The position numbers were made by a program, and so were the translations under genes. From Bacteroides sp. (GTDB taxonomy: Bacteria; Bacteroidota; Bacteroidia; Bacteroidales; Bacteroidaceae), in contig JAJPZL010000193.1 of the NCBI GenBank assembly GCA_021204375.1, positions 1 to 17,929 of the forward strand: a stretch of DNA of 17,929 nucleotides, read 5' to 3'. The notes beneath the pieces were generated by a model. That model did no database searches and was not told the DNA's origin. It worked only from the letters and a program-made list of their open reading frames with translations. Shown one piece after another: positions 47 to 17,929 of the stretch (positions are counted from its first letter, which is position 1; every line of letters begins with the position of its first letter).

Positions 47-1933
47 TTACTGTACTATTGTCTGTTCATAAATTAATTTTAGTGCTTCACGCCGTTGCAT
101 TCCTTCGGGAATGGATATTCCGGATAACCGGCTCCACTCTTCAGCACTCTCTTTATCGGTCTCTTCATCCAGACGGGCTTTCCATTCCGGAATATAGCCT
201 CTGAGTCCAAGCTTCTGTACCATAGCGAAATCCTTATCTTCGGGGATCATATCCTGGTAATAGATCAAAGTTGCTTTCTGATCCATAAGCTTTTCCTGCA
301 GGGCCTCTATATCAGTTTCCCGAATGCTCTTTCCATGCTCTATGGAAAGCGAAGCAGCCACTCCTGCTGCCTGTCCAAGCGCCATCCAGCAAGGTTCCAT
401 CCGTAAGGTAGAAAAACCGATATGGCTTCCTGAAACAGGTACAGGTATCAGCAGGTTATCGATCGCTGCAGGTACAATTACTCCGAAAGGTACGGTATAT
501 ACCGCAGTAGGATGACTGAAAAAACCATCCAATGCCATTTTACCCGGTTCTCTCTTTTTTACCGCATGCGAATCAAGCGCATAGTGGCTGGCAGTAATAC
601 TGGCGGCATGTAAAGGAGGCCGTTCCCCTTCTTCAACCGGCAGGGCATCGTGGGCGGTAAAGAAGTATTCTCCTTCAAACCGTCTTCCCTCCCGGACATA
701 TACCTGACGGGGGAAATGTCCGTTATCCGGATATTCGTCCGAGGCAAGCCCCCATTCCCGGCAGGCATTACGGAACCTTTCAGGCAGTTCTTCATCATTT
801 TGTGCAAACCAGAGTAGCCCAAGAATATACTCCTTTAACCGTTTCGCATATCTGTCATGCCACTCCCAGTCTGCCGTAGGCCAGGGATAATTCTCTTCCG
901 GCAGGTCTGTGGAGATCAGAGCCAGGTGCTAATTGTTGGCATCCATTTTCTGATTGGGTAGCGTGGTCATACTGGATATTTTCCATATACCCCACACATC
1001 TCCCGGGATCCGGGTGGAATTCCCTTCCCGGATAGCTTCCCGGTTATTTTCCATCATCTCTTCGGTTATTCCCAACATATCCGCACCGACGTGTCTTCCG
1101 GAGTATACATCGTCGATCAAAGAAATGTACTCCTCGCGGTTGTAATTTTCCGGTCTCTCCGGTAATAGGCGGATCTCCGGATCGTTGGTCAGGCACAGCC
1201 GGTAATTATAAGCTTGCAGGGCTTCGTCTCCCTCGTGCGTGCTTCCTTCCAGTTCAGGTCATTTCCATAGCTTGTAGATACGGCCTGCTCCGGGCTCGTT
1301 GAATTCTGCTCCGGATTCACGTCCTATGTGGTAAGGTACTCCTGAAGCTCCCCCCAGGTCTCCCTCATAGGTGGCATCCACAAAGACCTTACCTTTGTAC
1401 TTTTCGGTAGTGCTATTAATCCGGTTGGTAACCAGGATGGAGGCTATCTTTCCATTCTTTATCTCTACATTATGTGCAGCAGCATCAAACTGCCGCATGG
1501 TAAGTATGGTAATATTATCTCCCTCTTTACGGATCATCTCTTCAAATACAATGGCAGCCACTTTCGGTTCAAAATGGTAACCCTGGCTACAATCCCTTAC
1601 CTGGGGAGAGTCTTTTCCGTATCTGTTCACATAGTAGTGGTAAACTCCATCTACAAACTCTTTGAACAATCCCGTAGTTGCTCCTTTGGTGGCTATATCC
1701 GTCGCCCCCAATCCGTTGACAGGAAGCCCTCCCAGATGCTCTGTCCTTTCCAGCTCAACCGACCTTTTTCCTTCCCGTGAGGCAGCAATAGCTGCCATGA
1801 TCCCTCCCGGTGTACCTCCTACAATAACAAGATCAAAAGAGGGTTTACGGATGCACTGGGAGAACAGCCCCCGGCTAATAAAATCATACAGGCTGGGAGA
1901 TAGAAAAACCGGAAATTATTTTTTATATTTCAT
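47..1933 (-). pseudogene. FAD-dependent oxidoreductase (FAD_oxidored type), broken
   Basis: Last gene of the minus-strand operon. Read through its lesions it encodes about 628 residues. A dinucleotide-binding motif (VGGTPGG, about residues 38-44) follows the N-terminus, then LERTEHLGGLPVNGLGATD, and near the C-terminus RMEPCWMALGQAAGVAAS, the order seen in PUL-associated FAD_oxidored proteins. Their reaction is generally unknown. Lesions: an apparent extra A in the A6 run at 1919-1924 sends the start ATG (1931-1933) into TAA at 1916-1918. A compensating missing A at 1844-1846 restores frame; between them the shifted frame reads a lipoprotein-like signal (MILLAGGC). In-frame TGA lies at 1259-1261 (family residue probably Gly or Arg) and in-frame TAG at 929-931. 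The remaining stretches are open in one frame to TAA at 47-49. ATG lies one base after the stop of the upstream gene, so the two were probably translationally coupled. Family call is firm; inactivity is inferred from the lesions. Confidence 0.85.
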
Positions 1934-1934
1934 C

Positions 1935-3893
1935 TTATTCGGAGATTATAGTCGCATTATCAACATTCATGATCAGGGTATGATCCTTAGCTATCCGGAT
2001 CTCCCGGGAAGCAAAAGGAGTTTGGTTGTAAGGATTGTCATACCGGTAACCGGTTTTAAGAGCCTTTATCTCTTCATTGACACTGAACTCCTTTTCCTAG
2101 CCGAATTCTATTGTTCCGGAAGCCGAAGAGTGGTAAGTAACATCCAGTCCGTTACACGCTACTTTACTCCCGGCGATCTTTTCCACAAACTCTTCAAAAC
2201 TTCCCCACTCCTTGCGGGAGCCGGTCTCACAGATCCAGCTGTTTTGCCGTCCCGGTACAACCAGATCGTTCATGACTCCCGCCTGATCCGGTTGCCAGGT
2301 AGCAGGTTTCTGCGAATAGAGTGCTACGTATCCGTCCCCTCTCTTCCCGAAATACCATCCGTTCTTTTCGACCACTTCGTCGAAAGCTGCCTGAGGAAAA
2401 TAGGCGTGTGACAGATCCTTGCCTACACCTTCCGGAGAGTTATAGATACAGATCACAATATTCTTATGCTGGGCTGCCCGGGGAAGGGATTCATTGCCTG
2501 CCCAGTAATTCGGGCTTCATTCCAGGTCCATTCCTCCGGGATGGTTGGTAAATACGATGGCACGGTTATCCAGATTTGCCTGCCAGATATGCTACTGATA
2601 GGCAACCGCGCCCGGCCGGTAATCCTGAGCACAACTTACCATATAATCGTTGGTACGATACGTCACGAAATTGGCTTCGGAAAGGGCAAAACGATCCAGG
2701 CGATTGTTGATGACCTTCCCGTATTTCCGGATCTGCTCTTCGTAACGGTTGATATAAGGATCATAATTCCCGTACGGATAGGTACCGTACTTCTCAGAGA
2801 TCTTTTTCGACATACGCACTACTTCCGGATGGATAAATTCCTGCATCTGCCAGTATAGATGAACATCTTCTTCCCGGTCAAAAGATAAACCGTAGAGCGG
2901 GGCATCATCCACCTCCATACTGGTTTTCTGATAGTTCAACAGGGAAGTCGTATAATCCGTAGCAATATCTATAATAAGTTGCGGACACCGGTAACTGCTT
3001 CCGCAAAGAGCTACATTCCCCATAATATCCCGTGGCAGGAAGGCTCCCTCTCCAAATATAAGTTTCAGGGTAGGGGACATATCGTGGCTGCCCCGGAGCA
3101 GGGAGCTCGCATACATACGACCACTGGTAGAAGCCAGAGAACCGTGGAACTGGTTAAGAGCCATATCGAACATAAGCAGGTTCAGTACCATTTCCGCTCT
3201 TTTCCTCAGGAGTGGATTTTCCGCATGATCATACAAATTGATCAGCAGTAAAATATCTACTTCGTAATAACTCGATAACCATTCGCTGAAACCAAAACGG
3301 AAGAGGAAATCAAGCCAGCGGTTCAGCAGATACTCTGCATGTTCCACATGTTCACGTCCTGTCAGCCCGCTGCTGAACGTACGGTCTTTATACAACTGGC
3401 CCGCTAATAATTCGGCCGTATGAAAAAGTGCCTGGTGGTTCTCCGTATGATAACACCGGTAAGTCGTATCCCTCCGGGCATCGTTCCACCAATATTTAAA
3501 GTCCAGGATGCAGTTCTCTACTTTTTCAGCCATTTCCGCAGAAAGAGTAGGCTTTTCCTGCTCCATATATTGCAGGCGCAGCAATCCGTTCATCACAAAA
3601 TCGGTACAATCCCGGTTGCTCCGGATCAGGTCGATCACCTCCTGAACATATCCTTCTTCCGTTTTCATTCCTGCCAGTAAACGCGCCACCTGGGTAAATA
3701 TACCTCTCAGGTCTGTTTTATCCCCGTTCTGAATACAATAGGTAAGGAAAAGTTCTCTTCTCTCCTCATAATTACCGCGGGGAGTATGCCAGTACTCATC
3801 CTCTGCCGGCATCGGTTTAGTAAAGTCTCCCGCAGTAGCATATCCGGCTACACCCAGCAAGAAGATCAAAGTAAGTATATAAGTTAATTTCAT
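1935..3893 (-). pseudogene. Secreted PUL protein of unrecognised family, candidate polysaccharide lyase, broken
   Basis: ATG at 3893 opens a clear Sec signal peptide (MKLTYILTLIFLLGVAGYATA), so the product would be exported. The first 430 residues are rich in helix-like segments and contain CYHTENHQALFHTAELLAGQ, followed about 45 residues later by FSEWLSSYYEVDILLLINLYD. The C-terminal third looks strand-rich (for example HIWQANLDNRAIVFTNHPGG). This recalls the alpha/alpha-toroid plus beta-sheet build of several polysaccharide lyase families, but I do not recognise the family and assign no activity. The gene is colinear over about 652 codons but interrupted by TAG at 2592-2594 (Gln context, AYQ-stop-HIWQ), TGA at 2517-2519 (LE-stop-SPNYWAG) and TAG at 2097-2099. 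Protein-like sequence continues after each stop, ending at TAA 1935-1937. It starts 26 bases after the esterase stop and ends one base before the oxidoreductase ATG. Confidence 0.75.
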
Positions 3894-3919
3894 GTTTTCC
3901 AGGAATCAAATAATAGGTT

Positions 3920-5205
3920 TTATTTCACTAATTTTCCGATCTACTGCCACGCTTTGCCCCACTGTTCCGGATAACCGAAATGGGCCGCCTCTTCCATGAT
4001 AAGCAGTGTTTTGGGAGCCTCAATAACGTTGTATGCCGAGAACATAGAGGTCGGTGGACATACCATATCGTTATAGCCGAATGAGTAGAATCCGGGAACC
4101 TTCAGTTGGCGGGCAAAATTTACTACATCGTAATAAGGAGTTACTTCACTCTTTATACGGATCACTTCAGGAGAGTCGGTTGTATGACGGAACAGATGAG
4201 GTCAGCCACCGGCACGGTTATGCAGGTAACCATTCAGGTCACAAAGTGCCGGATAGAAGGAGACCAGCCCGGTTACCCGGTTATCCAGTGCAGCCGTAAT
4301 AATAGCTAATGCTCCTCCATGGCTTCCACCCTGCACAGTCAGGTTCTTCCCGTCGAACTGTTCCAGTGTAAAAAGATAATCCACTGCCATTACACATCCC
4401 AGGTAAACCCGTTTATAATAGACTTTCTCCCGGTTGTCCCAGTTAAAATGCTGGTAGCCGGAGAGCCCGCCCCGTTCAGCTCCGCATAGAACTGTGGATC
4501 CAGCGTAACCGGAATACCGTGGATCTCTATTTCCAGGGAGATAAATCCGTTCTCTGCATCCGCCCGGTTACCGTTATAGGGACGGATCCCGGCTCCGGGT
4601 ACCCGGAGAATCGCCGGGTATTTACCGGGAGTAGTCGGTACACACAATATCCTGTAGATCCTTCCTCCGTGTTGATAATGCTGGATACTTACTTCATATA
4701 CATCTGCTTTGTCCGAACTTCTCTCCGGCAGATGCCGCAGACGGGGAGAGAGTGGAATACGGCTGTTCTCTGCTTTTGCCTTTTCCCAGAACTCGTTGAA
4801 ATCCTCCGGAAGAAGCGTGGTCGGGACAATCGTTTCGGGCTCAAAAGCAGCCGTCGCCTTCCCTTCATACCGGTTCCCTTCATACATAGCAAACACCCTG
4901 CACCGTAAAAAACCGGCTGTCTGCATGGTACCCCCGCTGATAGAAAGTTTTCCGTTCTTTAAAATAATCCTCTTTTGCCGATAAGGATCCATCATATCGT
5001 AAGAGAGCTCATACTCGATCTCTACATTTTCGATCGAGATACTGTTTTTTGTAACCGTTACCTCAAACTTCACCGGCTCGCCCGGATGATAGTTCCAGTC
5101 GGTATGATCGGGAGCCACGATCACTTTCACCATCCGTTCTCCCGGTTGCGCAAATAATACCAGACAGGCGAGCAGGCCACTCCATAGAATCAAACTTCTT
5201 TTCAT
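3920..5205 (-). pseudogene. CE7-family acetyl (xylan) esterase, broken
   Basis: CE7 enzymes are alpha/beta hydrolases that remove O-acetyl groups from sugars and oligosaccharides. The gene starts with ATG at 5205 and a short signal peptide (MKRSLILWSGLLACLVLFAQ). An N-terminal beta domain precedes the hydrolase domain. All three catalytic elements are visible: nucleophile Ser in GGSHGG (about 4319-4336), Asp in FGYNDMVCPPTS, and His in EEAAHFGYPEQW. Reconstructed length is about 428 residues, normal for the secreted Bacteroidota branch. Lesions: one base is missing in the C-rich run at 4466-4473, after about residue 244, so the frame runs out at 4390. In-frame TGA at 4202-4204 replaces the Trp of the conserved AGGWPHLFR stretch. 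TAG at 3941-3943 cuts off the last few codons (IGKLVK) before TAA at 3920-3922; this last one could instead be a slightly earlier natural end. The catalytic Ser, Asp and His all lie beyond the frameshift. Confidence 0.87.
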
Positions 5206-5224
5206 CGTTACTCTTTTTCGGGTG

Positions 5225-7171
5225 TTATTCGATCACGGCTGCCCAGCCACCGTTCCTGACCATTTTAATCGCTATTTTCTCTCCCGTTCTTACGCTCTTC
5301 TCTTTTTTGCGGTAATCCATAGCCTGGCGGTCAGTATTGATACCATCCTCGAACCAGGTCATCTGATAAGATCTCCCCGCAGGAAGAAAATCGAGGCTGA
5401 TCTCAAATTCCCGGGCTCTCTCTTTATTATTGGTAATACCCCCTATAAACCATTTTTCTCTTTTCCGCTTAGCCACTATGATGTACTGGCCGGCATCTGC
5501 TTCCAGGGCTATCGTCTCATCCCAGGTAGTCGGTACACGGGTGATGAACTCCGTACAATCTGCATTCCGGTAGTAAAGGGTCGGGTTATCTGCCAGCATC
5601 TGTAAACCACTCTCAAAAACGACAAAAAGGGCAAACTGGTAAGCCCGAGTACCGATACTGGCCGAATTAGGACGATCTGCCTGGTATATATCCGGCTGCA
5701 TGCTGATCATGGCTCCCGGAGTATAATCCATCGGCCCCACCGTATTACGGATAAAAGGCAGGTACAGGCTGTTATCCGGGTAGCATCCACCCATCTGTTC
5801 CATGCCCCTTACTTCTTCGTAGGAGATCACATTCGGATAGGCATATTCCAGTCCGGCAGGTTTGAATGATCCGTGGAAATCCACCAGCAGGTGATGTTTG
5901 GCTGCCTCTCTGGCTACTTTTTCGTAGTAATTTACCATCCATTGGTCACTCCTGTCCATAAAATCTATCTTCACTCCTTTCACTCCCCACTCTTCAAAAG
6001 TTTTGAAAAGTTCAAAATTATTCTCTACGGTAAGCCAGGTAAGCCACAGGAAGACCCCCACATTCTTCTCTTTACCATACCGGATAATTTTATGTACATC
6101 TACATCCGGATTGGGAGTATAAGGGTCGCGGGTCGACAGGGCCCATCCTTCATCCATAATGATATATTCAATCCCATACTTAGCAGCAAAGTCGATGAAA
6201 TATTTGTAAGTATCCAGATTAAATCCTGAAACAAACTCTACATCCGGTCCATACGGAGTCGCCCCGTTCCACCATTCCCAGCTTGCCTGTCCCGGTCTGA
6301 TCCAGGAAGTATCAGCCAGTTGGTTCTTAGCAGCCAGTTTATAGGTCATGGTGTTCTCTATGATCTGTTTATTATCGGTAGTGATCACAAAATAGCGCCA
6401 GGGGAAACCTCTTTTTCCGGAAGTCTCTGCTATATAATCCGCCTCTTTTACTATCTTCAGGCTACGGTCTCCATCCTCCCCGAATTCAAGGGGAACAGAA
6501 GGAAAGAGGGAGCACATACCGTTCTTCCCATCTCCCCGGAGGAACATACACGGATAGTCAGCCAGGTCTGATTCGGAGATCAATATTTTAGTACCTGTAT
6601 GGGTATCGATCATCAGAGGAAGAAGAGCCATTTTATCTTTCGGTCTCCACTCGTTGGTGGTTACCTGTGCATAGACCTCTTCATAGGCTGTTTTAAAACC
6701 ACCAGGTTGTTGCACAGTAGCAGTATAGGCAGCCGGAAAGCGAACCAACAGATCTTCTCCGGTTACATACAGGGGAGATTTACGGTCGGTGATGAACCGG
6801 TAGGCTACTCCATCGTCATATGCACGGAATTCTATTTTATAATTCCCTTTGAAAGAGAGCGATAATTCGTTGTAGTGATTGGTTACGGTAGAAAATTTAA
6901 GAGGAACTATCGGGGTAAGCTCTTCCTGTACACTGCGGGTTTTCCGGCTGCTGAGCCGGGGTTTTTTTCCCAATGCCTCATCTGCCAGCCGAAGAGCGAT
7001 TTTCTCTGCTGTTAATACCTCTTTTCCGTTACAATGTACGGAATAGGAGATCTGGTCTGCTATCCGGACAGTAAGCCGGATATTCCCATCCGGAGAATCC
7101 AGGCTGATGGTCTGTGCGCGTAATACAATAAGTAGTGAAAAACACAAAGTAAATAAAGCGATCCGTTTCAT
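5225..7171 (-). CDS. GH97 glycoside hydrolase (alpha-galactosidase/alpha-glucosidase family), intact
   Basis: The only gene in the window with a complete reading frame: 648 residues from ATG 7171 to TAA 5225-5227, normal for GH97. A signal peptide (MKRIALFTLCFSLLIVLRAQ) indicates export to the periplasm. The N-terminal beta-sandwich spans roughly residues 22-275. The catalytic barrel follows, beginning near SWEWWNGATPYGPD (about 297-310), with IEYIIMDEGW (about 334-343), KIDFMDRSDQ (401-410) and SYEEVRGMEQ (450-459). A C-terminal beta domain closes it. In GH97 the Asp of the KIDF-type loop is the nucleophile of the retaining branch, which includes alpha-galactosidases; inverting SusB-like members lack it. 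D403 therefore points to the retaining branch, though substrate is not proven. The gene sits 24 bases after the GH105 stop and 19 bases before the esterase ATG. Its intact frame among broken neighbours may reflect selection, chance or recency. Confidence 0.95.
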   Translation of the reverse strand: MKRIALFTLCFSLLIVLRAQTISLDSPDGNIRLTVRIADQISYSVHCNGKEVLTAEKIALRLADEALGKKPRLSSRKTRSVQEELTPIVPLKFSTVTNHYNELSLSFKGNYKIEFRAYDDGVAYRFITDRKSPLYVTGEDLLVRFPAAYTATVQQPGGFKTAYEEVYAQVTTNEWRPKDKMALLPLMIDTHTGTKILISESDLADYPCMFLRGDGKNGMCSLFPSVPLEFGEDGDRSLKIVKEADYIAETSGKRGFPWRYFVITTDNKQIIENTMTYKLAAKNQLADTSWIRPGQASWEWWNGATPYGPDVEFVSGFNLDTYKYFIDFAAKYGIEYIIMDEGWALSTRDPYTPNPDVDVHKIIRYGKEKNVGVFLWLTWLTVENNFELFKTFEEWGVKGVKIDFMDRSDQWMVNYYEKVAREAAKHHLLVDFHGSFKPAGLEYAYPNVISYEEVRGMEQMGGCYPDNSLYLPFIRNTVGPMDYTPGAMISMQPDIYQADRPNSASIGTRAYQFALFVVFESGLQMLADNPTLYYRNADCTEFITRVPTTWDETIALEADAGQYIIVAKRKREKWFIGGITNNKERAREFEISLDFLPAGRSYQMTWFEDGINTDRQAMDYRKKEKSVRTGEKIAIKMVRNGGWAAVIE

Positions 7172-7195
7172 GATATAATCGTATGTAGTTAGTAG

Positions 7196-8329
7196 TTATT
7201 TTTCCAATAAAGCCGCTGCACACCATAACAGAGGTGCCTGGCCGTGGAGGTCTCCCGTTACCCGTTTCCTCTCTAAATAGTATTGCCGGGTATCTCCGGT
7301 ATTGGTTCCCTAGCACACTTCTCTCAGGTCGTTATCCTCATTCAGGTAGGTCAGTAAAGTAAGCCATGCTTTCCGGGCGATGGGTCCGTATATCTCTGCA
7401 TCCAGTCACCCTTTCTTAACCCCTGTGATCATAGCATAGGTGAACATGGCAGAACCCGATGTCTCTGTCCAGGATTGGGGTTCATCTACCAGCTGACTCC
7501 ATAGCCCCTCCTCATTCTGATAACTGCGAAGGGTCTCCATCATTTTCCGGTACTGAGCCAGAATAGCTTCTCTGTGAGGATTGCCGGCCGGAAGGTATGT
7601 AAGCAGATCGGTCATACCCGCTGCCATCCATCCGTTGCCCCGGCACCAGTAAAAAGGCGCACCGGAGGCATGGTAAAAAAGTCCGTTGGGCTGTTGGATC
7701 GAATCAAAGTAGATGTTCATTTCATAAGCAGCCCGTTCTATATACTCCGGATCTCCTGATGCTAAGTAAGCCTGGCTCTGTATAGTGGTGATCATGAACA
7801 TATCATCGATCCAGAAACGGGTTTGCCAGGAGAGTCCCTGGTCCAGGTATTTCCGGTACTCCTCAGCATGGCTGGTGTTTTTCGGCATTTGCCACTGGCG
7901 GTCTGCAAAATCGATCCCCAGGTAATAGTAAAGTTCATTACCGGTCAGCATATAGAGTTGTAAAGGAACAGAACCAAAAACAGTATGGTCTACATGGTCT
8001 GGCTTCTGCATCAACTCTTTCCGTGATCCCAGTAACGAGAAGAAACGCTCTTCCAGTTGCCTGAGCAGCTTTTTGTCTTTAGTGACATGGACAAACTTTA
8101 AAGCTCCGTACCAGGCACATACTTCTGGGTAAGTTACCTCTCCGGGAGGAGTTTGAATACCATCGAAATTCCGGAAAGGTTCGGACAGATACCTGGTTGC
8201 CAGCAGATATCCTACCTCTTTGGGGATTGCACCCTTCGGGAACTTTTTTAATTCACTTTTCTGAGCATAGCCAAACAGTGTGTTTGTGCAGAGCAAAATG
8301 GCGATCAGCCAACCTGTTTTTCTTTTCAT
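7196..8329 (-). pseudogene. GH105-type unsaturated rhamnogalacturonyl/glucuronyl hydrolase, broken
   Basis: GH105 enzymes hydrolyse the 4,5-unsaturated uronic acid left at the non-reducing end of oligosaccharides by lyases. ATG at 8329 begins a signal peptide (MKRKTGWLIAILLCTNTLFG). Family features are in order: WIDDMFM (about 173-179, containing the catalytic Asp pair), FYWCRGNGW (about 226-234) and SWTETSGSAMFTYA near residue 290, on an alpha-helical barrel. Reconstructed length is 377 residues, typical for GH105. In-frame TGA at 7406-7408 occupies a Trp position (KKG-stop-LDAEIYGPIARKAW) and ends the open product at 307 residues. In-frame TAG at 7310-7312 follows (EVC-stop-GTNTGD). The sequence after both stops is still clearly family-like (DLHGQAPLLWCAAALL) and ends at TAA 7196-7198. 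First enzyme gene after susD, from which it is separated by 138 bases and a hairpin. Confidence 0.88.
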
Positions 8330-8467
8330 CTTTTGTTCCTGTTTAGTCTCTATCCGTAAGTACCATCGGATAGGTTATAAATTTAATCATTATTTGCCGG
8401 GAAACAGGCAGTTCCGGAGAACTGCCTGTGTGGTGATATCCGGAAAACAATTTACCTTATATTTACT
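8330..8467 (-). other. susD/GH105 intergenic spacer
   Basis: This is the longest gap inside the operon. It contains the hairpin described separately and an A/T-rich stretch just before the GH105 ATG. I see no further open frame and no convincing TAnnTTTG promoter box, so the enzyme genes probably depend on read-through from susCD. Confidence 0.45.
8404..8429 (-). terminator. Hairpin between susD and the enzyme genes (terminator or mRNA-processing site)
   Basis: A perfect 10-base-pair stem (ACAGGCAGTT paired with AACTGCCTGT) closes a six-base loop, 39 bases after the susD stop on the minus strand. On that strand the stem is followed only by TTTCCC, so the U-tract is weak. Hairpins after susD are common in PULs, where they may partly terminate transcription and keep transporter mRNA in excess of enzyme mRNA. 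The stem is seen directly; its function is inferred. Confidence 0.55.
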
Positions 8468-10261
8468 TTACCACTCCGGATTCTGAGGATAGGGTTCTCC
8501 GGTGGTAGTCCGTTCGATCTGATCCCTGGGGATCGGCCGTAATCAGTGCTTATCAGCGATATTGACACGAGCCACATGGTTATCATACGCCCTTACCCGT
8601 TACAGAAGAGTTCCTGTACGTGCCAGGTCGTTCCAGCGGCAGTGCTCGGCCAGCAACTCGCGGGTCCACTCTTCCAGGATATATTCCAGGGTCACCTCCG
8701 AAGGCTGAATATCCAGGGCGCCTTCCACACTATTCTCCTTATCACGGGCCCGTTCCCGGATCACATTGATGTATTTAGTCGCATTGGGCAGGTCATTCAT
8801 TTTATAAGCTGCCTCGGCTGCCAGCAGGTAAGTCTCTGCCAGCCGGTAAATGATCACAGGACGGTCCGAACCGTCGTTGGCTTCATTACGGGTACGGTCT
8901 AGGTACTTCATCATGGTAGGATGGTAACCCCGTCCGTTATACATTTCCGGGGCCCAGATCACAAACTTATTTTTGCTTCTATTATGTAGCTCATTGATCT
9001 CTTCTAGGGACATATTATAACCCGGGCAATAAAGAGCGGTGTCACCTGGTGCGATCGTATTCCAGGCAAAGGTAACATCTTGTCCGCCTACGGTAAGCAC
9101 GATCTCTCCGCCGGATGCCCGGGTGCAATACCACACTTTCTGGAAAGTACTGTTATAACGGGTATCCACATCCCGCAGTGTGAACACATCATACGTATAA
9201 GGATTGGGGTTGTTCCATCCGTAAAGACGACCATACTCTACCGTTCTCTCTCCTACATAGGTGTCATATCCACCCACATAGTAGTGGTTAATAGTACTCT
9301 GGCCGCCATATACTATATCCATATCGTAATCCCAGCGGGCAACGAAAAGCTCTTCCGTATTTCTGCTGGAGGGAGCATCATTTGCCTCGTCAAATACGGA
9401 TGCGTAGGTCGGCATTAAATTTACTCCTTGTCTAGGAGCCTCTTCGATCAGTTCTACCGCCATATCGTAAGCTTTCTTATAATACTCCTGTGCTACGGAC
9501 GGATTATAATATTTCGTATGAGGATTATTGAGATAATTAGTTGCATCCTTGTCATGTACCCACGCGTACGTCAGATAGTCCTGGGCCAGTACATGGCGGG
9601 CTGTCAGTGCAGTAGCCCTTCCGGATTCGAAACCACTTACGTATGGCCCCGGCAGGCAAAGTTCGATCGCATCTTTCAGGTCTTCAAAAATAACCTCATA
9701 CGCCAGCAGCATATCGTGTCTTTCGGCAGAGGTAGAAGGAACTGTATTAAAACGGGTAGTCACTGTTACATCCCCGAAATGCTGTACCAACTGGAAGTAG
9801 TAGCAAGCCCGCAGGAACTTAGCTTCTCCCAGGTATTGATCCCTTTTTTCAGGAGTCAGGTAATGGGTGGTCAGGTCTACTTCATCGGCAAACTCAATTA
9901 AAAAGTTCAGTGTATTGAAATTTGCATAAGTCTGTGTCCACAGGCGGGTAGGATACTCATTGGCTGTATTGAATGCCTGGGGATCATACCGGGATATAGC
10001 AGAGGTACGGTTATCCGAAGCAATATTGGATTTATACTCATCCGTTCCTACATTAGTCATGGCATGGTAACCCTCTTCTGAGCCATACCAGCTTCTCATA
10101 TAAGCATATACTGAATTCAGGGTCATTCCGTACCTACAGGGGGTTCTCATAAAATCCTGGACCAGATTGGAGTGATTCTCCTCTTCCAGCTTGTCCTGAC
10201 AGGAAGTCGTTGTAACTGCCAAAGCAACTAATAGTGCTGATAAATATATTATTTTTCTCAT
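8468..10261 (-). pseudogene. SusD/RagB-family glycan-binding lipoprotein, C-terminally broken
   Basis: SusD-like proteins are outer-membrane surface lipoproteins that cap the SusC transporter and deliver glycan. ATG at 10261 starts a lipoprotein signal ending in TTTSC (Cys about residue 21). The tetratricopeptide-type helical core includes the diagnostic EAKFLRACYYFQLVQHFGDV (about residues 138-157), and the region around RLAETYLLAAEAAYKM is also typical. The full gene is about 597 residues, a normal size. In-frame TAA at 8600-8602 (RTGTLL-stop-RVRAYD) ends the open product at 553 residues. In-frame TGA at 8543-8545 (DKH-stop-LRPIPRDQI) follows. The rest (RPIPRDQI, then PQNPEW, then TAA at 8468-8470) is the conserved SusD C-terminus. 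A product lacking the final 44 residues might fold, but would miss a conserved closing segment. susC ends 19 bases upstream. Confidence 0.9.
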
Positions 10262-10280
10262 GGTGTCTATCTTTTACGGA

Positions 10281-13200
10281 TTAGAATGATAAATTAACTC
10301 CAAAAACGAACGAACGGGTAGGGAGCATTACCAGGTTGATCGTACTGGTTGTTTCCGGATCAATACCTCCATCTTTACGATACTCTTTACTGAACCAGGT
10401 ATACACATTGTTCGCTGTAAAGTAGACTCTGGCCGAGGCTACGGAAGCTTTCTGGAGGAATACCGCAGGTATAGTATAGCCCAGGGTCAGGTTCCTGAGT
10501 TTCAGGTAAGAACCGTCATAACGTGCCAGCAGTCCCAGGTTGCTGACCGTTCCTGAAGTCGGACGGGGCCAGCGTGCACCTGTATTCTCCGGAGTCCAGT
10601 AATCCACATTCAGGTTGTTATAGGTACCCCGCAGGGTATTCATATAACCACCGTGCATATCCGAAGTAATGATACCGCCATATTTGTAAGTCCATAAAAA
10701 AGAGAGATCAAAATTCTTGTAGGCAAAGCGGTTGGTGATACCTCCCTCAAATTTAGGAGCCCTGGTTCCCAGGAATACACGGTCGTCCTCATTGATCTGT
10801 TGCTTCTCCTTCGGTGTTACTCCATCTTCTTCGTAATCAATGTGGTGATTTTTGATCTTGATCGTTCCCAGTACCTGGCTCTGGTAAGTAGATTCATCAC
10901 AAAGGCTGTAACTGATCGCCAGGGTTCTGTCTTCCGGAGTATCCTGCCACAATCCGTCAGCCTCATACGAGTAGATCACATATTTATCTTTTCCTAAGAA
11001 ACGGTTATTACCGGTATCCTGTTCCACTCCGGGTCCCAGGTCGGTTATCCTGAATCTGTTACCGAAAATATTGAAATCTGTTGACCAGGAAAGCTGGTTC
11101 TTGCCATCTCCCGGAAGAATAACGGCGGATACATTGAACTCCCATCCCCGGTTCCTGGTTGCTCCCAGGTTGGTCACATAATCATCGGCATACCCACTGG
11201 TAATAGGCAACTTCACACCCAACAGTACATTGGTGGTCTTCTGCTGATAGAGTTCCAGCGTACCGGTGATCCGGTTCGACAGCAGCCCGAAGTCAATACC
11301 CAGGTTAATAGTCTCCGTATTCTCCCAACCTAACGAGTAGTCGGGTACAGAACTTGGTTTTACCCCCTTTACCCCATTATCACCCAGTATATATTTGTTA
11401 TCGGTCAACCGGGAGATAGTCTGGTAAGGGTTAATAGCGGTACTTCCCACATTTCCCCAGCTGGCACGGATCTTCAAAGAAGAGAGAACATCTATATCTT
11501 CCATAAAAGCCTCTTTCTTCATATTCCATCCCAGGGCGATAGAGGGGAAGGAGCGCCATTTATTTCCTTTCGCTAAGCGGGAAGAACCATCGTGACGGAT
11601 GGTAGCCGTCAGCAGGTATTTATCATTGTAGTTGTAGTTCAGCCTTGCCATATAGGAGAGAAGGGTCCATTTCCTGAACTCTCCGTCTGTATCTACCTCT
11701 TCTGCTTTAGAGGGATTGTAATACTGTACATCCCGGTCGTAGTAATCATATGAGTTGATCCAGGTACGTTCAAAGGTGTTTTCCTGATAACTGTAAAGAC
11801 CCGTGAAAAAGAAGTTATGTTTGTGGATCGAGTAGTTCCAGTTCAGGATATTTTCTAGGGTATAATCGGCTGTGAACTGATTTTCGTTGTTAGAGTAGTT
11901 CACTCCACTTCCCCGTTTGGTCGTGTAAGTATCCTCAAATTTACCAATGTGGTGGTATTTCAGGTTCACTCCTCCGTTAAACCGGTAAGTGAATCCATAG
12001 GGTAATTTGATATCTGCATATCCGGTTGTAAAGGTACTGAAGGTTTTCCTCTCGTCAATAACCGCCCCGTTTACCTCATCCAGTAACGGGTTAAATACAT
12101 TCCCGTTACTTCCGGCCAGGGTTAACACCAGGTTACCCTCTTCATCATAAGGAGTAGCGAAGGGGCTTGCCTGCAAGACATGTGCCAGCGGGTTATTATC
12201 ATTTCCCTGGTTCAAGATATAAGTATTGAGGGTAGAGAGACCTACCTTCAGGTATTGGTTTATTTCCGTGTCCATTGATAATTTGGCTGTCATTCTTTTA
12301 AAAGAGTGTCCCCGGTAAGTGTTTTTCTCCTTTATAATATCCAATGGATCCGTTATAGGTAGTTCTTTCAGACCCTCCGCTTATTCCTACCTGATGATTG
12401 GTGGTCATACCGTTCCTGAACATCAGGTCCTGCCAGTTGGTATCCACTCCGTTGTAATAATTGGTCTCTTCCTGTGCGTCCCGGAATACATATCCTACCG
12501 TCATCAGCTTCGGGTCATCCAATCCGGTGAAATCATCCGGAGCTGCATTGTACTGGGACCATTTTCTGAGTTGGAGGAACTGTTCTGCATTCATCAGATC
12601 ATACTGTTTGATAGCCGTTACTACCACATAATATCCACTGTAAGTAACGTTCACTTTTCCCTTATTGCCTCGTTTAGTAGTGATCAGGATCACCCCATTG
12701 GCCCCTCTGGAACCGTAGATCGCTGTAGTAGAGGCATCTTTAAGTACACTCACGCTGGCAATGTCATCGTTATTGATCTCATTCAGGCTCCCGGAGAATG
12801 GAATTCCGTCCACTACGATCAGCGCGTCGTTGGTAGCGGTAATGGAGCGTTTTCCGCGGATACGGATCTGTGCAACGGCTCCCGGGTGAGTATTCCCTCC
12901 GGCCATCTGTACATCTACTCCTGCCGCCAATCCCTGGAGGGCAGCTGCCAGATTAGGTACCGGAGCTTCCCGGAGTACCGCATCGTTCACATTGACCATG
13001 GCACCGGCAATATCCGATTTCTTCTGGGTACCGTATCCCACTACCACTACTTCGTCCAGTAGTTCGGTATCTTCCTGTAAAATAATAAAGAAGGAGGTGC
13101 GGTTCCCTACCTGGATGTGTTGTGTTACATAACCCAGATAAGATACCTGAAGTACACTGTTGGCAGGAACCTCTAGGGTTAAATTCCCGTCCAGGTCAGT

Positions 13201-13414
13201 CACTGTTCCGTTGCTGGAAGAACCTTGCTGTAAAACGGTAACTCCTACCATAGGTCCCGATTCGTCGGAGACATTCCCTGTCACTCTTTTCATCTGGCTT
13301 TGTTGCAGGCCCCATGACTCCGGCTAACCGTCCGACATTCCTTCGGCGGTAGCAGAGAGATGAAAAAACACAAGGCTCCTAAGAGACATAATTTTGTAAG
13401 TGTTTTTTGTACAT
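10281..13414 (-). pseudogene. SusC/RagA-family TonB-dependent outer-membrane transporter, broken
   Basis: SusC proteins are 22-strand barrels that import oligosaccharides with energy from TonB. The sequence shows the N-terminal carboxypeptidase-regulatory-like domain (VTGNVSDESGPMVGVTVL onward), the TonB-box-like stretch DEVVVVGYGTQKK, the plug (IRIRGKRSITATNDALIVVD, then SVLKDASTTAIYGSRGANGV), and a barrel ending in VFGVNLSF. Total about 1,036-1,045 codons, normal for the family. One extra base at 12322-12333 (GGAGAAAAAC context) shifts frame early in the barrel: the first part stops at 12298, while the second is open from there to TAA 10281-10283. The N-terminus is also damaged. The best signal peptide (LCLLGALCFFISLL) lies in a different frame from both the ATG at 13414 and the mature protein, implying two more single-base losses. 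TAG at 13324-13326 interrupts the mature frame. An alternative in-frame ATG is at 13389. Probably first gene of the operon. Confidence 0.9.
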
Positions 13415-13478
13415 AATAAATAGTCTTAATGGTTAAACCTTCAAATTAATTGCGGAAAGTGATCTCTCCTGCGCTGTA

Positions 13479-13506
13479 CAAAAGTAGCAGGATGTGAGAT
13501 GCACAA
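13479..13506 (-). promoter_or_regulatory. Candidate susC operon promoter (Bacteroidota type)
   Basis: On the minus strand TACTTTTG (13479-13486) matches the Bacteroidota -7 consensus TAnnTTTG exactly, and TTG (13504-13506) lies 17 bases upstream as a plausible -33 element. The spacing is slightly shorter than the usual 19-21. Transcription would start near 13472 and give a leader of roughly 60-85 bases before susC. Match seen directly; activity inferred. Confidence 0.5.
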
Positions 13507-13518
13507 CAGTACGAAAAC

Positions 13519-13551
13519 CTGCCATAGGAGATGCCTGGAAGGACATGGCAG
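13519..13551. repeat. Inverted repeat CTGCCAT / ATGGCAG, candidate operator
   Basis: Seven-base perfect arms at 13519-13525 and 13545-13551 are separated by 19 bases. The repeat lies just upstream of the candidate susC -33 element, where an AraC-type activator of the HTCS class would be expected to bind. It could also be a chance match of short arms. Confidence 0.35.
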
Positions 13552-13563
13552 AAAAGTGTACTA

Positions 13564-13576
13564 ATTTGTCACAAAT
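13564..13576. repeat. Palindrome ATTTGT-C-ACAAAT, candidate operator
   Basis: A perfect 6+1+6 palindrome lies between the two divergent promoters, roughly 60 bases upstream of the candidate susC -33 element. It is a reasonable candidate for a regulator site, but its A/T-rich arms make chance occurrence possible. Confidence 0.35.
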
Positions 13577-13656
13577 CCATACTGATAAGCGGGTAAACTA
13601 ACGGAATCTCCCTGCATATTTTTTCCGTTACTATAAAAAGCATCCCTTAAAATTTG

Positions 13657-13664
13657 TACATTTG
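13657..13664 (+). promoter_or_regulatory. Candidate HTCS gene promoter -7 box
   Basis: TACATTTG matches the Bacteroidota -7 consensus TAnnTTTG exactly, about 70 bases before the HTCS start. No clear TTG-type -33 element is seen at the expected distance, so support is from the one box and its position. Confidence 0.35.
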
Positions 13665-13734
13665 CAAAGATCTGATAGTACCCGGAGATACTGGCTCGTT
13701 AGTTAAGGATTGCAGGAGAACGTGAAGAGTCCTC

Positions 13735-16700
13735 GTGAGAGTGAGGGCTTTTCTTTATTTGTCCGTGTATACCTCTTCTCCCTTATATGCCTATGGTCTG
13801 CGCCGGTACTCCAGCCAGAACGGACTCTCCAACAGTGCCATTCTTTCCATCTGCCAGGATGATGATGGGTTTATGTGGTTCGGATCGTGCGACGGGCTGA
13901 ATGTTTTTGACGGACTCAATATCCAGGTTTATAAACCTACTACCGAAACGAATAATCTGTCCGGGAACCTTATAGAATATATTCACGAAGAAGAACCCGG
14001 GATCTTGTGGGTACAGACCAACTACGGGCTCGATCGTTTTGATACCCGTCGGAAAACCATCCGTTCTTTTAAAGAGTTCAAGAACCGCAATTTTTTTGCC
14101 TCTTCCGGAAAAGAGATCTATGTGATCCATGAGAACGGTTCTATCTCTTACTGCAACTCCGGAGAAGAGGAGTTCCGGAAAATAGAACTGCCTGAACTAT
14201 CCATTGAAGAGATCCTGGATTTTGTTATTGATTCCCGCCGAAATGCCTGGATATTTACCCGGGACGGGAAATGTTATATCTATCATATGGAAAGGAATGG
14301 GGAAGAGGTAGTGTTCCGACCTTTTCAGTTATTTACCCCTTCCGAACCTTTACTGGCCTGTTTCCACGAAGGAGAAAGAGTCTATTATATAGATGTGACC
14401 CACCAGTTCTATAAGTTGGACCTGCTCTCGGGAAAGGCCGACTGTATGTTTGACCTGCAGGAGGTCATACACCGGAAAGGCGAAGTCTCCTCTGTCATTA
14501 AACACCACGACGACTACTATATGGGCTTTAAGACCAGTGGACTGGTACGCCTGAAAGAGACTCCTCACAGTAAGACCCCGTATGAAGTAATGGATATAGA
14601 TATTAAACCGGGAATATTCTACCTGGTAAAAGACCGGTACCAGGATGTGATCTGGGTAGGAACGGATGGGCAGGGAGTCTTTATATACTATATTGATGAA
14701 TACTCTATCCAATCTATCCTGTTGAGCGATCTCTCCGTACCGGTCAATAATCCTGTCCGGGCCCTTTGTATAGACCGGTACAGGAATTTATGGATCGGCA
14801 CCAAAGGGGACGGCACTGTAAAGCTCAGTCACTATGATCCGTCCGCTTCTTCCCTGGCTGCCACTTCCTGGTATCACACTACCAATTCTGTGTTGAAAGA
14901 TAATTCGGTGTATGCCTTCCTGCCCAGTGAAAGGAACCTGTTGTGAATCGGGAGCGAAGAGGGTCTTACTTATTACTCTTACCGGGAGGAGCAGATCAGA
15001 ACGCTGAAAGAACCTCCCGGAGAATCTCCCGTAAAGTATGTACATGCTCTCTGTGAACAGGGTGATTCCATCCTCTGGATCGCCACCGTAGGAGAGGGGA
15101 TTGTCAAGGCACGCCTGGGAGGGAGCTGCGACAAGCCTGAAATAACAGAGATCAAACGGTTCATTGTGGAGGAGGGACCGGTGAACTAACTACTTTTTTG
15201 CCGCCTATCCGGAGAACGATTCCATCATCTGGTTTGGGAACCGGGGATACGGAGCTTTTCGTTTCAATACCCATACCGACCGGTACGAGGTGTTCCGTTT
15301 TGACGAAGATGGGGCCAACCAGACGCTGAATGATATTTGTTCTATTATAAAGAATGAGCAGGGGCACTGGTTCGGTACCAGTTTCGGGCTGGTAAGACGG
15401 CACAACGGAGTGCAAAGTTTTTATAACGAAGCCAATGGATTCCCCAATAATACGGTACATGCTATCCTGGAGGACCGGCGGAATAATCTCTGGCTCAGTA
15501 CCAATCAGGGAATGGTAAAATTTAATACCTCTACCCTGACCTACCAGACCTTTAAACACACCAACGAATTAAAGATCACGGAGTTTAGCGACGGAGCCTT
15601 TTTCCGGGATGAGATCACCGGTTCGCTGCTGTTCTGAGGAGTGAACGGTTTTATTACGATCCATGAGAATGAGTATGCGCAAAAAGAATATCTGCCTGCC
15701 ATAGCCTTTAACCGTCTCTCTATTTTTGGCAAAGAGTATAATATTTATGACTTCCTTACCGGGAAAAAAGGAAAACCTCTCCTGGAACTCGACTATAGCC
15801 AGAATTTCTTTTCCGTTACCTTTACCGCCATTGATTATCTGCATGGAAATGATTATACCTATTTTTATAAACTCGATGAACTTAATGATAGCTGGATAGA
15901 GAACGGAAGCCTGAACAGTGCTGCTTTTACCAATATCTCTCCCGGCCAGTACACTCTGTCGGTCAAATACCGCAATAACATTACTGGTAACGAGGGAGAG
16001 ACCCAGCAGTTGTATATAAGAATATTGCCTCCCTGGTATTTAACCAGGTTAGCCTATTTTATATATGGTATATTGGGGCTCGGTCTGGCAGTTGCTATTT
16101 TCCTTTTCAGCCGTAAGTGGTATACTATGAAAAAGCTTTCCATTGTAGAACAGTTGAACCGGCAGCAGAAAGAGGAGGTATATGAATCCAAAATCCGGTT
16201 CTTTACTAACATTACCAATGAATTCTGTACCCCCCTTACCCTGATCCACGGCCCGTGTGAGAAACTGCTCTCTTATCCGGGAAGTGATCCGTATATCCAT
16301 AAATATATAACCCTGATCCGCCACAATGCCGAAAGACTCAACCAGCTTATCCAGGAGCTGATCGAGTTCAGGCGGCTGGAGACAGGGAACAGGCAACCCG
16401 AGATTAAACAGGTATCTCTCTCTTCACTGGCAGAGCAACTGGCCGGCGCCTTTTATGAACTTGCAGAAAGCCGGAATATAATATACCGGGTAGAAATAGA
16501 CCAGGAGATAAGCTGGAACACAGATCCGGCCTGTTTTTCTAAAATTATCAATAACCTGCTCTCCAATGCTTTTAAATATGTAAATACCGAAGGTAACATC
16601 CTTATCAAGCTGTTTGTCATCAATAATATGTTGCATCTGCATGTGTCCAATACGGGAAAGGGTATCCGGAAAGAACAGATCCCCGAGATTTTCGACCGGT

Positions 16701-17764
16701 ATAAGATCCTAGATAATTTTGAATTTTAAAGCAAAGGAATAAATACCCGTAACGGGTTAGGGCTGGCTATCTGCCACAATATGGTAAAATTACTGGGAGG
16801 AGACATCCATGTGACCAGTGAGCCGGACAAAGAGACTATCTTTACGGTTGTCCTTCCTTTCCTGGCTGTTCTCTCATCCGCTGAGAACCTGGTAGAAGAA
16901 GAGCCGTTGCCACCCGCTATGAATTTTCCCCTCCATCTGGAAGAGCAAAAAGAAGAAAAAGACCAGAAAAGACCTACTATACTTATTATTGATGATGATC
17001 CTTCCATGCTCTGGTTCATTGCAGAAGTCTTCCGGGAGAACTATAATGTAGTTCCCATCAATGACTCTACCGAAGTGGCCCGGTACCTGGAGTGTAATCA
17101 ACCCGATCTGATCATTTCAGATATTATGATGCCCGAAGTAGATAGAATTTCCATTGCCCGTATGATCCGTTCCCATCCACTCACTAACCATATTCCCCTG
17201 ATCCATCTTTCTGCTAAAATTACCATTGAAGACCAGGTAAAAGGGATAGAGTCGGGTTCGGATATCTACATAACCAAACCTTTTAATGTCGAATTCCTGG
17301 AGAAGGTGGTAAAACGGCTCCTCCAGCAGAAAAAAGATCTCAAACACTATTATAACTCTACACTAAGTGTCCTGGAACTCCAGGATGGACAATTTATTCA
17401 TAAAGACGATAAGGAGACCTTTGATAAACTCAGGGTTATCATTGAAAAGAATATCAGTGATCCGGAACTTTCGGTAGACCTGCTAAGCTCTTCCCTGGGA
17501 ATGAGCTCCCGCCAGCTCTATCGTAAAACTAAAGCCATGGCGGACAAAACTCCCGCCGACCTGATCAAGGAGTACCGGTTCAGTCTGGTCGAAAAACTGC
17601 TGGTCACCACCCAGCTCTCGATCGATGAGATACTGTACCGTACCGGATTCGCCAATCGGGGAAACTTTTTCAAAGCATTTTCGGCCCGGTATGGAACGAC
17701 TCCGAAACGTTTCCGGGAAATGAAGAAGGAAGAAGCCGGGTTGGAAGTAAAGAGCAATGAATGA
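13735..17764 (+). pseudogene. Hybrid two-component system sensor/regulator (HTCS) of the PUL, broken
   Basis: HTCS proteins sense an oligosaccharide in the periplasm and activate the adjacent PUL. Reconstructed length is about 1,342 residues, typical. In order: a weak signal peptide (AFLYLSVY), propeller repeats (GLSNSAILSICQDDDGFMWF onward), Y_Y_Y domain (about 15830-16040), one membrane segment (about 16045-16115), HisKA (about 16180-16370), HATPase (INNLLSNAFKYV, NTGKGI), receiver (IIDDDP; phospho-Asp codon 17120-17122; ITKPF) and AraC-type DNA-binding domain (about 17440-17745). In-frame stops: TGA 14944-14946 (Trp of the repeat motif LWIG), TGA 15635-15637 (LLF-stop-GVNGF) and TAA 16727-16729 (NFEF-stop-SKGINTRNGLG). 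An AACT tandem duplication at 15184-15191 shifts frame. The phospho-accepting His is Asn (codon 16217-16219) and the receiver MPxxDG glycine is Arg. There is no ATG start; GTG 13735 or 13741 is the best remaining start, after AGGAGAA. Confidence 0.9.
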
Positions 17765-17800
17765 TCCTGTTCCAATCCGGAATGATCCCGTTCTTATAAG
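17759..17800 (+). repeat. Imperfect 21-base-period direct repeat at the HTCS 3' end
   Basis: GAATGATCCTGTTC (17759-17772) recurs as GAATGATCCCGTTC (17780-17793) with one mismatch. The 21-base period equals seven codons, so the HTCS terminal Glu-TGA is repeated in frame. This suggests a small tandem duplication across the gene end, or a longer ancestral reading frame continuing to a later TAA. Confidence 0.4.
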
Positions 17801-17929
17801 GAGGTGTCCTCAAAGTAAGTTAGCTTATTCGTTTGTCCTGGTCAGCGAAAATGAAGCATCTATCCGGAGATTACATAGAATTAAAATTTAAAATTATCTA
17901 TAATCTATAATTGGGTACCGGTTAAATTT
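17765..17929. other. Noncoding tail downstream of the HTCS gene
   Basis: No convincing gene is visible. The stretch contains the 21-base-period repeat, a GAGG-TGT-CCTC mini-hairpin near 17802-17812, and an A/T-rich end with two tandem copies of ATCTATA (17896-17909). I see no clear factor-independent terminator or transposon end. Confidence 0.4.

Follow-up and report, generated by a model that had tools for sequence, protein, structure and literature searches.

The stretch of DNA analysed here (hereafter the window) is the complete 17,929-base contig C386 of a Bacteroides MAG, G000 (3.30 Mb in 506 contigs, completeness 79%, contamination 1%), and its lesions were read from the assembled MAG contigs. 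Pfam searches on the open pieces identified an FAD oxidoreductase, an AXE1 esterase, GH97, GH88, SusD and SusC (plug and barrel), and the pieces of a regulator matched propeller, receiver and AraC parts. An adjoining SusC/SusD pair, CAZymes and a hybrid two-component regulator (HTCS) give the window the composition of a polysaccharide utilization locus (PUL); they were recognised by Pfam/TIGR matches and by synteny to a second Bacteroides genome (G128). With seven of its eight genes broken, the locus does not encode a working set of gene products. We conclude that it is the remains of a PUL that was once functional. The syntenic locus of G128 (contig C13, 49606-67878) shows the same order of HTCS, SusC, SusD, GH88, GH97, esterase, unannotated protein and FAD oxidoreductase, but there all eight genes are full-length frames, with amino acid identities of 42-76% to the locus in G000.

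Genes and lesions of the locus

Lesions were called with a protein-to-DNA aligner permitting frameshifts, using reference homologues from G128, G074 and G030. This yielded 14, arguably 15, in-frame stops spread over seven of the eight genes and about seven one-base shifts in four of them (FAD, esterase, SusC and HTCS). The original prediction had described scattered point lesions across the PUL, with 15 stops and about seven shifts in four genes. The comparison with homologues bears this out, except that the 15th stop depends on the reference and that no 4-base shift was seen. As had also been claimed, family sequence resumes after the lesions: each time, the alignment picks up again and reaches the end of the homologue, or nearly so. 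Given the amino acid identity of 42-76% across the lesions and the nucleotide identity of 94% to the sister MAG G085 over 13.7 kb, chance is excluded.

All genes except the regulator lie on the reverse strand. The FAD-dependent oxidoreductase (47..1933) is broken by stops at 1261 and 931 and by four one-base shifts in its leader (1868-1925), seen as four one-base differences from G085, whose frame is continuous there. The gene for an unannotated PUL protein of ~640 aa (1935..3893) contains stops at 2594, 2519 and 2099. The G128 homologue of this protein gave no sequence match in Pfam, NCBIfam or PDB, and a 'heparinase-like' label, having no such match behind it, was dropped; the protein (L149:8476-10422) was found in G128 and G074 as well. 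The AXE1-type esterase (3941..5205) is disrupted by a frameshift at ~4467-4474 and a stop at 4204, and the GH88-type hydrolase (7196..8329) by stops at 7408 and 7312; both genes are unbroken in G085. Between them, GH97 (5225..7171, 648 aa) is intact in the window and frameshifted in G085. SusD (8468..10261) carries stops at 8602 and 8545, and the SusD of the sister is stop-free but frameshifted.

SusC (10281..13407) has an N-terminal stop at 13326 and a frameshift at ~12324-12327. The stop was called with the SusC of G128, and with that of G074 only at the two lower frameshift penalties. Leader and body of SusC lie in different frames in G000 and G085 alike, so the two probably have an older leader frameshift in common, which translation from a start codon further on may bypass. 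The HTCS (13726..17764, forward strand) is broken by stops at 14944, 15635 and 16727 and by a frameshift at ~15178-15184; the debatable stop beside this frameshift (15182) appears when G030 serves as the reference but is absent with that of G128. Regulator, transporter and enzymes had been predicted to have decayed together, and all three classes are indeed damaged, with the exception of GH97, which escaped in the window. The HTCS part (13750-17839) is 87% identical to L054 (G085:C268) over 4,098 columns, with gaps of up to 3 bases. Compared with 94% for the rest of the locus, and on a separate G085 contig, this may reflect faster divergence or a paralogue.

Comparison with the sister genome and age of the lesions

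The orthologous locus of G085 lies on contig C398, matching JAJQBG010000190 ('Bacteroides sp. isolate C.2_15'). The two loci are 94% identical over 13,701 columns. Their alignment opens 12 gaps totalling 13 bases and shows no large deletion between them over its 13.7 kb, in agreement with the proposal that function was lost before deletions set in. One of the 15 stop positions compared is shared (2099), and the other 14 are sense codons (Gln, Trp, Arg or Gly) in G085. The sister locus has lesions of its own, with one shift apiece in FAD, GH97 and SusD and three in HTCS, and with one stop in SusC and another in HTCS. Comparison with orthologous PULs, which had been suggested as a check, thereby found full-length frames in G128 and, in G085, separate lesions beside the shared stop. 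Stop 2099, and probably the SusC leader frameshift, is common to the two sister species and the other lesions are separate, so the single event originally envisaged does not hold. A SusD frame elsewhere (L297, G000:C178, 15092-16612) is intact in G000 and contains a stop in G085, so decay is seen in both directions.

In the 46 codons behind the shared stop 2099, G000 and G085 differ by 7 missense changes and 1 silent change, compared with 18 missense and 68 silent differences in the rest of the ~640-aa gene (Fisher P = 0.0003; the latter figures were obtained by subtraction from the gene totals). Judged by this substitution pattern, the sequence behind 2099 evolves as if untranslated and the sequence before it as coding. 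Because the tail is rich in missense and the rest of the gene in silent differences, the two genomes most likely inherited this stop and do not read through it, with the truncated protein kept under selection upstream. With a neutral tail behind it, the shared stop appears unlikely to have arisen twice by convergence.

Differences between G000 and G085 at codon positions 1, 2 and 3 number 243, 125 and 858 (~5,600 sites each), so that third positions hold 70% of them. This strong bias indicates that most of the divergence arose under constraint and that most lesions look recent, as expected from the very recent loss originally proposed. It counts against neutral decay that the sequence behind most G000 stops still looks constrained, so that those stops must be young.

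Polarisation with outgroups, which left out 294 unpolarisable codons and 105 codons with several changes, assigned 252 silent, 105 missense and 8 nonsense changes to the G000 branch and 266, 73 and 2 to the G085 branch; the nonsense share expected under neutrality is ~3%. On the G000 branch, the missense excess predicts 2.0 to 3.8 nonsense changes in place of the 8 seen (P = 0.001 to 0.04, by baseline), where the baseline was estimated by hand and the window had been picked for its stops. This surplus of stops speaks against decay by relaxed selection but may be loosely compatible with recent neutral decay. It was also considered as a sign of recoding, a reading that loses force because the window was selected for its stops and the baseline is uncertain. 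Coding-strand G-to-T changes number 18 on the G000 branch vs. 5 on the G085 branch (17 vs. 3 in a second count), a surplus that perhaps reflects weakened repair of oxidised guanine.

Glycan importers and core genes across the genome

The SusC profile TIGR04056 gave 51 matches in G000, 50 of them listed, and grouping the pieces per contig resulted in 43 loci; as scoring covered 49 of the 105 candidates from a first look, the importers found may be fewer than all. The loss is not confined to a single locus, as had been assumed, since 41 of the 43 SusC loci found are broken. A stop occurs in 38 of these, two (the window's own and that on C482) are split without a stop, and the SusC on C209 is in fragments, its counterpart in the sister being a single frame. 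Only the SusC genes on C151 and C193 are whole among the 43 loci.

The SusC matches contain 76 stops in 36,063 matched codons (2.11 per 1000 codons), and SusD (2.19; stops in 13 of 39 matches) and GH2 (1.67; 5 of 17 matches) show that accessory genes are disrupted genome-wide. Among ABC-transporter domains, a set in which core and accessory genes are mixed, 7 of 38 matches in G000 contain stops (2 of 43 in G085), at a density like that of SusC; this runs counter to a clean divide, and the damage therefore reaches beyond PULs. This, and the fact that SusD and GH2 come close to SusC in stop density, weakens the idea of a loss confined to SusC. Reference-free ORF statistics, computed for 357 kb of G000 sampled as 52 contigs or pieces, showed fragmentation, although the comparison stretches had been chosen near PULs.

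Among other genomes, SusC matches with a stop amount to 14 among the 50 listed of 52 in G085, 16 among the 50 listed of 54 in G056 and 4 among the best 20 listed in G128. None were seen in G001 (38 of 38 matches), in the best 21 of 37 in G030, in the best 26 of 38 in G074 or in the best 18 of 38 in G038. The stops in G056 indicate that decay extends beyond the species pair of the window. In this 99% complete genome, individual SusC genes among those listed contain up to 6 stops (e.g., C53:19850-22825 and C23:22756-25110). We conclude that glycan import is eroding genome-wide in G000, mostly through lineage-specific lesions, and that the erosion in the sister is milder and separate.

Core genes of G000 served as a control. 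Stops were present in 0 of 7 matches for translation GTPases, 0 of 3 for tRNA synthetases and 1 of 11 for helicases, leaving 20 of the 21 core matches stop-free. If core genes had the stop rate of SusC, their 3,045 matched codons would be expected to contain 6.4 stops in place of this single one (P = 0.012). Twelve of the 21 lie in frames of about the same length as in G085 or G128 (8,868 codons), although pairing by length tends to pick out intact genes; the remaining eight stop-free matches have shorter frames, lack a partner or sit at the end of a contig. Broken genes (DPP IV, HTCS, cation efflux, GH92, SusC and DUF4961) alternate on C183 and C178 with intact ones (PurD, RlmL-like, ZnuA-like, TMEM260-like and epimerase).

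These controls bear on the possibility that the stops and shifts are artefacts of assembly or sequencing, or stem from DNA that was old and damaged. The MAG is fragmented and 79% complete, several indels lie in short homopolymers and most stops are C-to-T or G-to-A changes, all of which would fit such an origin. However, random error is not expected to spare core genes or to produce an inherited stop, common to an independent MAG, with neutral sequence behind it, and the strong third-position bias of the differences is also unlike random error. We regard this explanation as very improbable and conclude that the lesions are real and do not represent sequencing error.

Alternatively, the stops could be read as sense, by a changed code or suppression, with the genes still working. 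Although the constraint still apparent behind most stops and the presence of Gln or Trp in the sister at 10 of the 14 unshared positions would be in line with this, TAA, TAG and TGA all occur among the stops, where a reassignment should make one codon consistently sense, core genes included. Further, recoding would account neither for the frameshifts nor for the near absence of stops from core genes, and constraint is lost behind the single shared stop. We therefore give it hardly any credence.

Decay of glycan import in a Bacteroides lineage

We propose that the locus is genuinely decaying, that this decay is recent and still under way, and that it belongs to a loss of SusC/D-type glycan import throughout the genome; to this reading we assign a probability of roughly 0.85. 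Foraging for glycans would have ceased to pay in this Bacteroides lineage, and selection on glycan uptake would have collapsed recently, after a smaller and older loss common to the sister. We presume that ordinary mutation under relaxed selection produced the decay, and that the lineage had changed its host or niche; association with a host, a diet lacking complex glycans or the cost of exposing SusC could each be the cause. That the lineage is host-restricted or niche-shifted, as first suggested, is plausible.

Selection may also have acted directly against the importers, for example as phage receptors or antigens, in place of a mere release from selection. The 41 of 43 broken SusC loci, set against 8 of 17 GH2 matches in stop-free frames of >800 aa, and a number of stops exceeding the prediction from the missense excess would speak for this. 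Several lesions per gene are nevertheless what drift after loss would leave and are not expected from selection for loss, SusD and GH2 resemble SusC in stop density, and the enzymes and the regulator of the window decay as well; we consider active selection unlikely. On a broader reading, less probable than our main one but not negligible, a Bacteroides lineage could be abandoning SusC/D import wholesale, at speeds differing by species, because a new association with a host made importers useless or, as phage receptors or antigens, costly; a few importers and several glycosidases would be kept.

Bacteroides are textbook glycan generalists, and the literature search found no printed case of PUL-wide pseudogenes in this genus. 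The decay of G000 fits early reductive genome evolution, a process of an already known kind, with Sodalis, Serratia symbiotica and Mycobacterium leprae as further cases. The nearest published parallel found is that of the Desulfovibrio ectosymbionts of termite-gut Trichonympha, which are reported to be in early reductive genome evolution, with many accessory pseudogenes, a core that is kept and parallel loss in relatives (PMC7608387). G000 differs from these in that its loss centres on SusC/D glycan import and takes place in Bacteroides, and in that large deletions are absent from the stretch compared. G000 would represent a bacterium caught early in losing its glycan-foraging machinery. If true, this is a species with nearly all importers found disabled and no large deletion in the compared stretch, and with a less decayed sister (94%) and a relative that has this locus in full length at hand, it would become possible to measure, and not just infer, in which order, how fast and why niche-driven gene loss proceeds.

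The two whole SusC genes, L301 (G000:C193) and L300 (G000:C151), are each paired with a stop-free SusD. The counterpart of the C193 SusC/D pair in G085 is 92% identical and adjoins BlaI/BlaR-like regulators, a TonB-like gene and S-adenosylhomocysteine hydrolase, and the partner of the C151 SusC is an fn3/purple-acid-phosphatase-N protein. These two importers may mark what G000 still imports.
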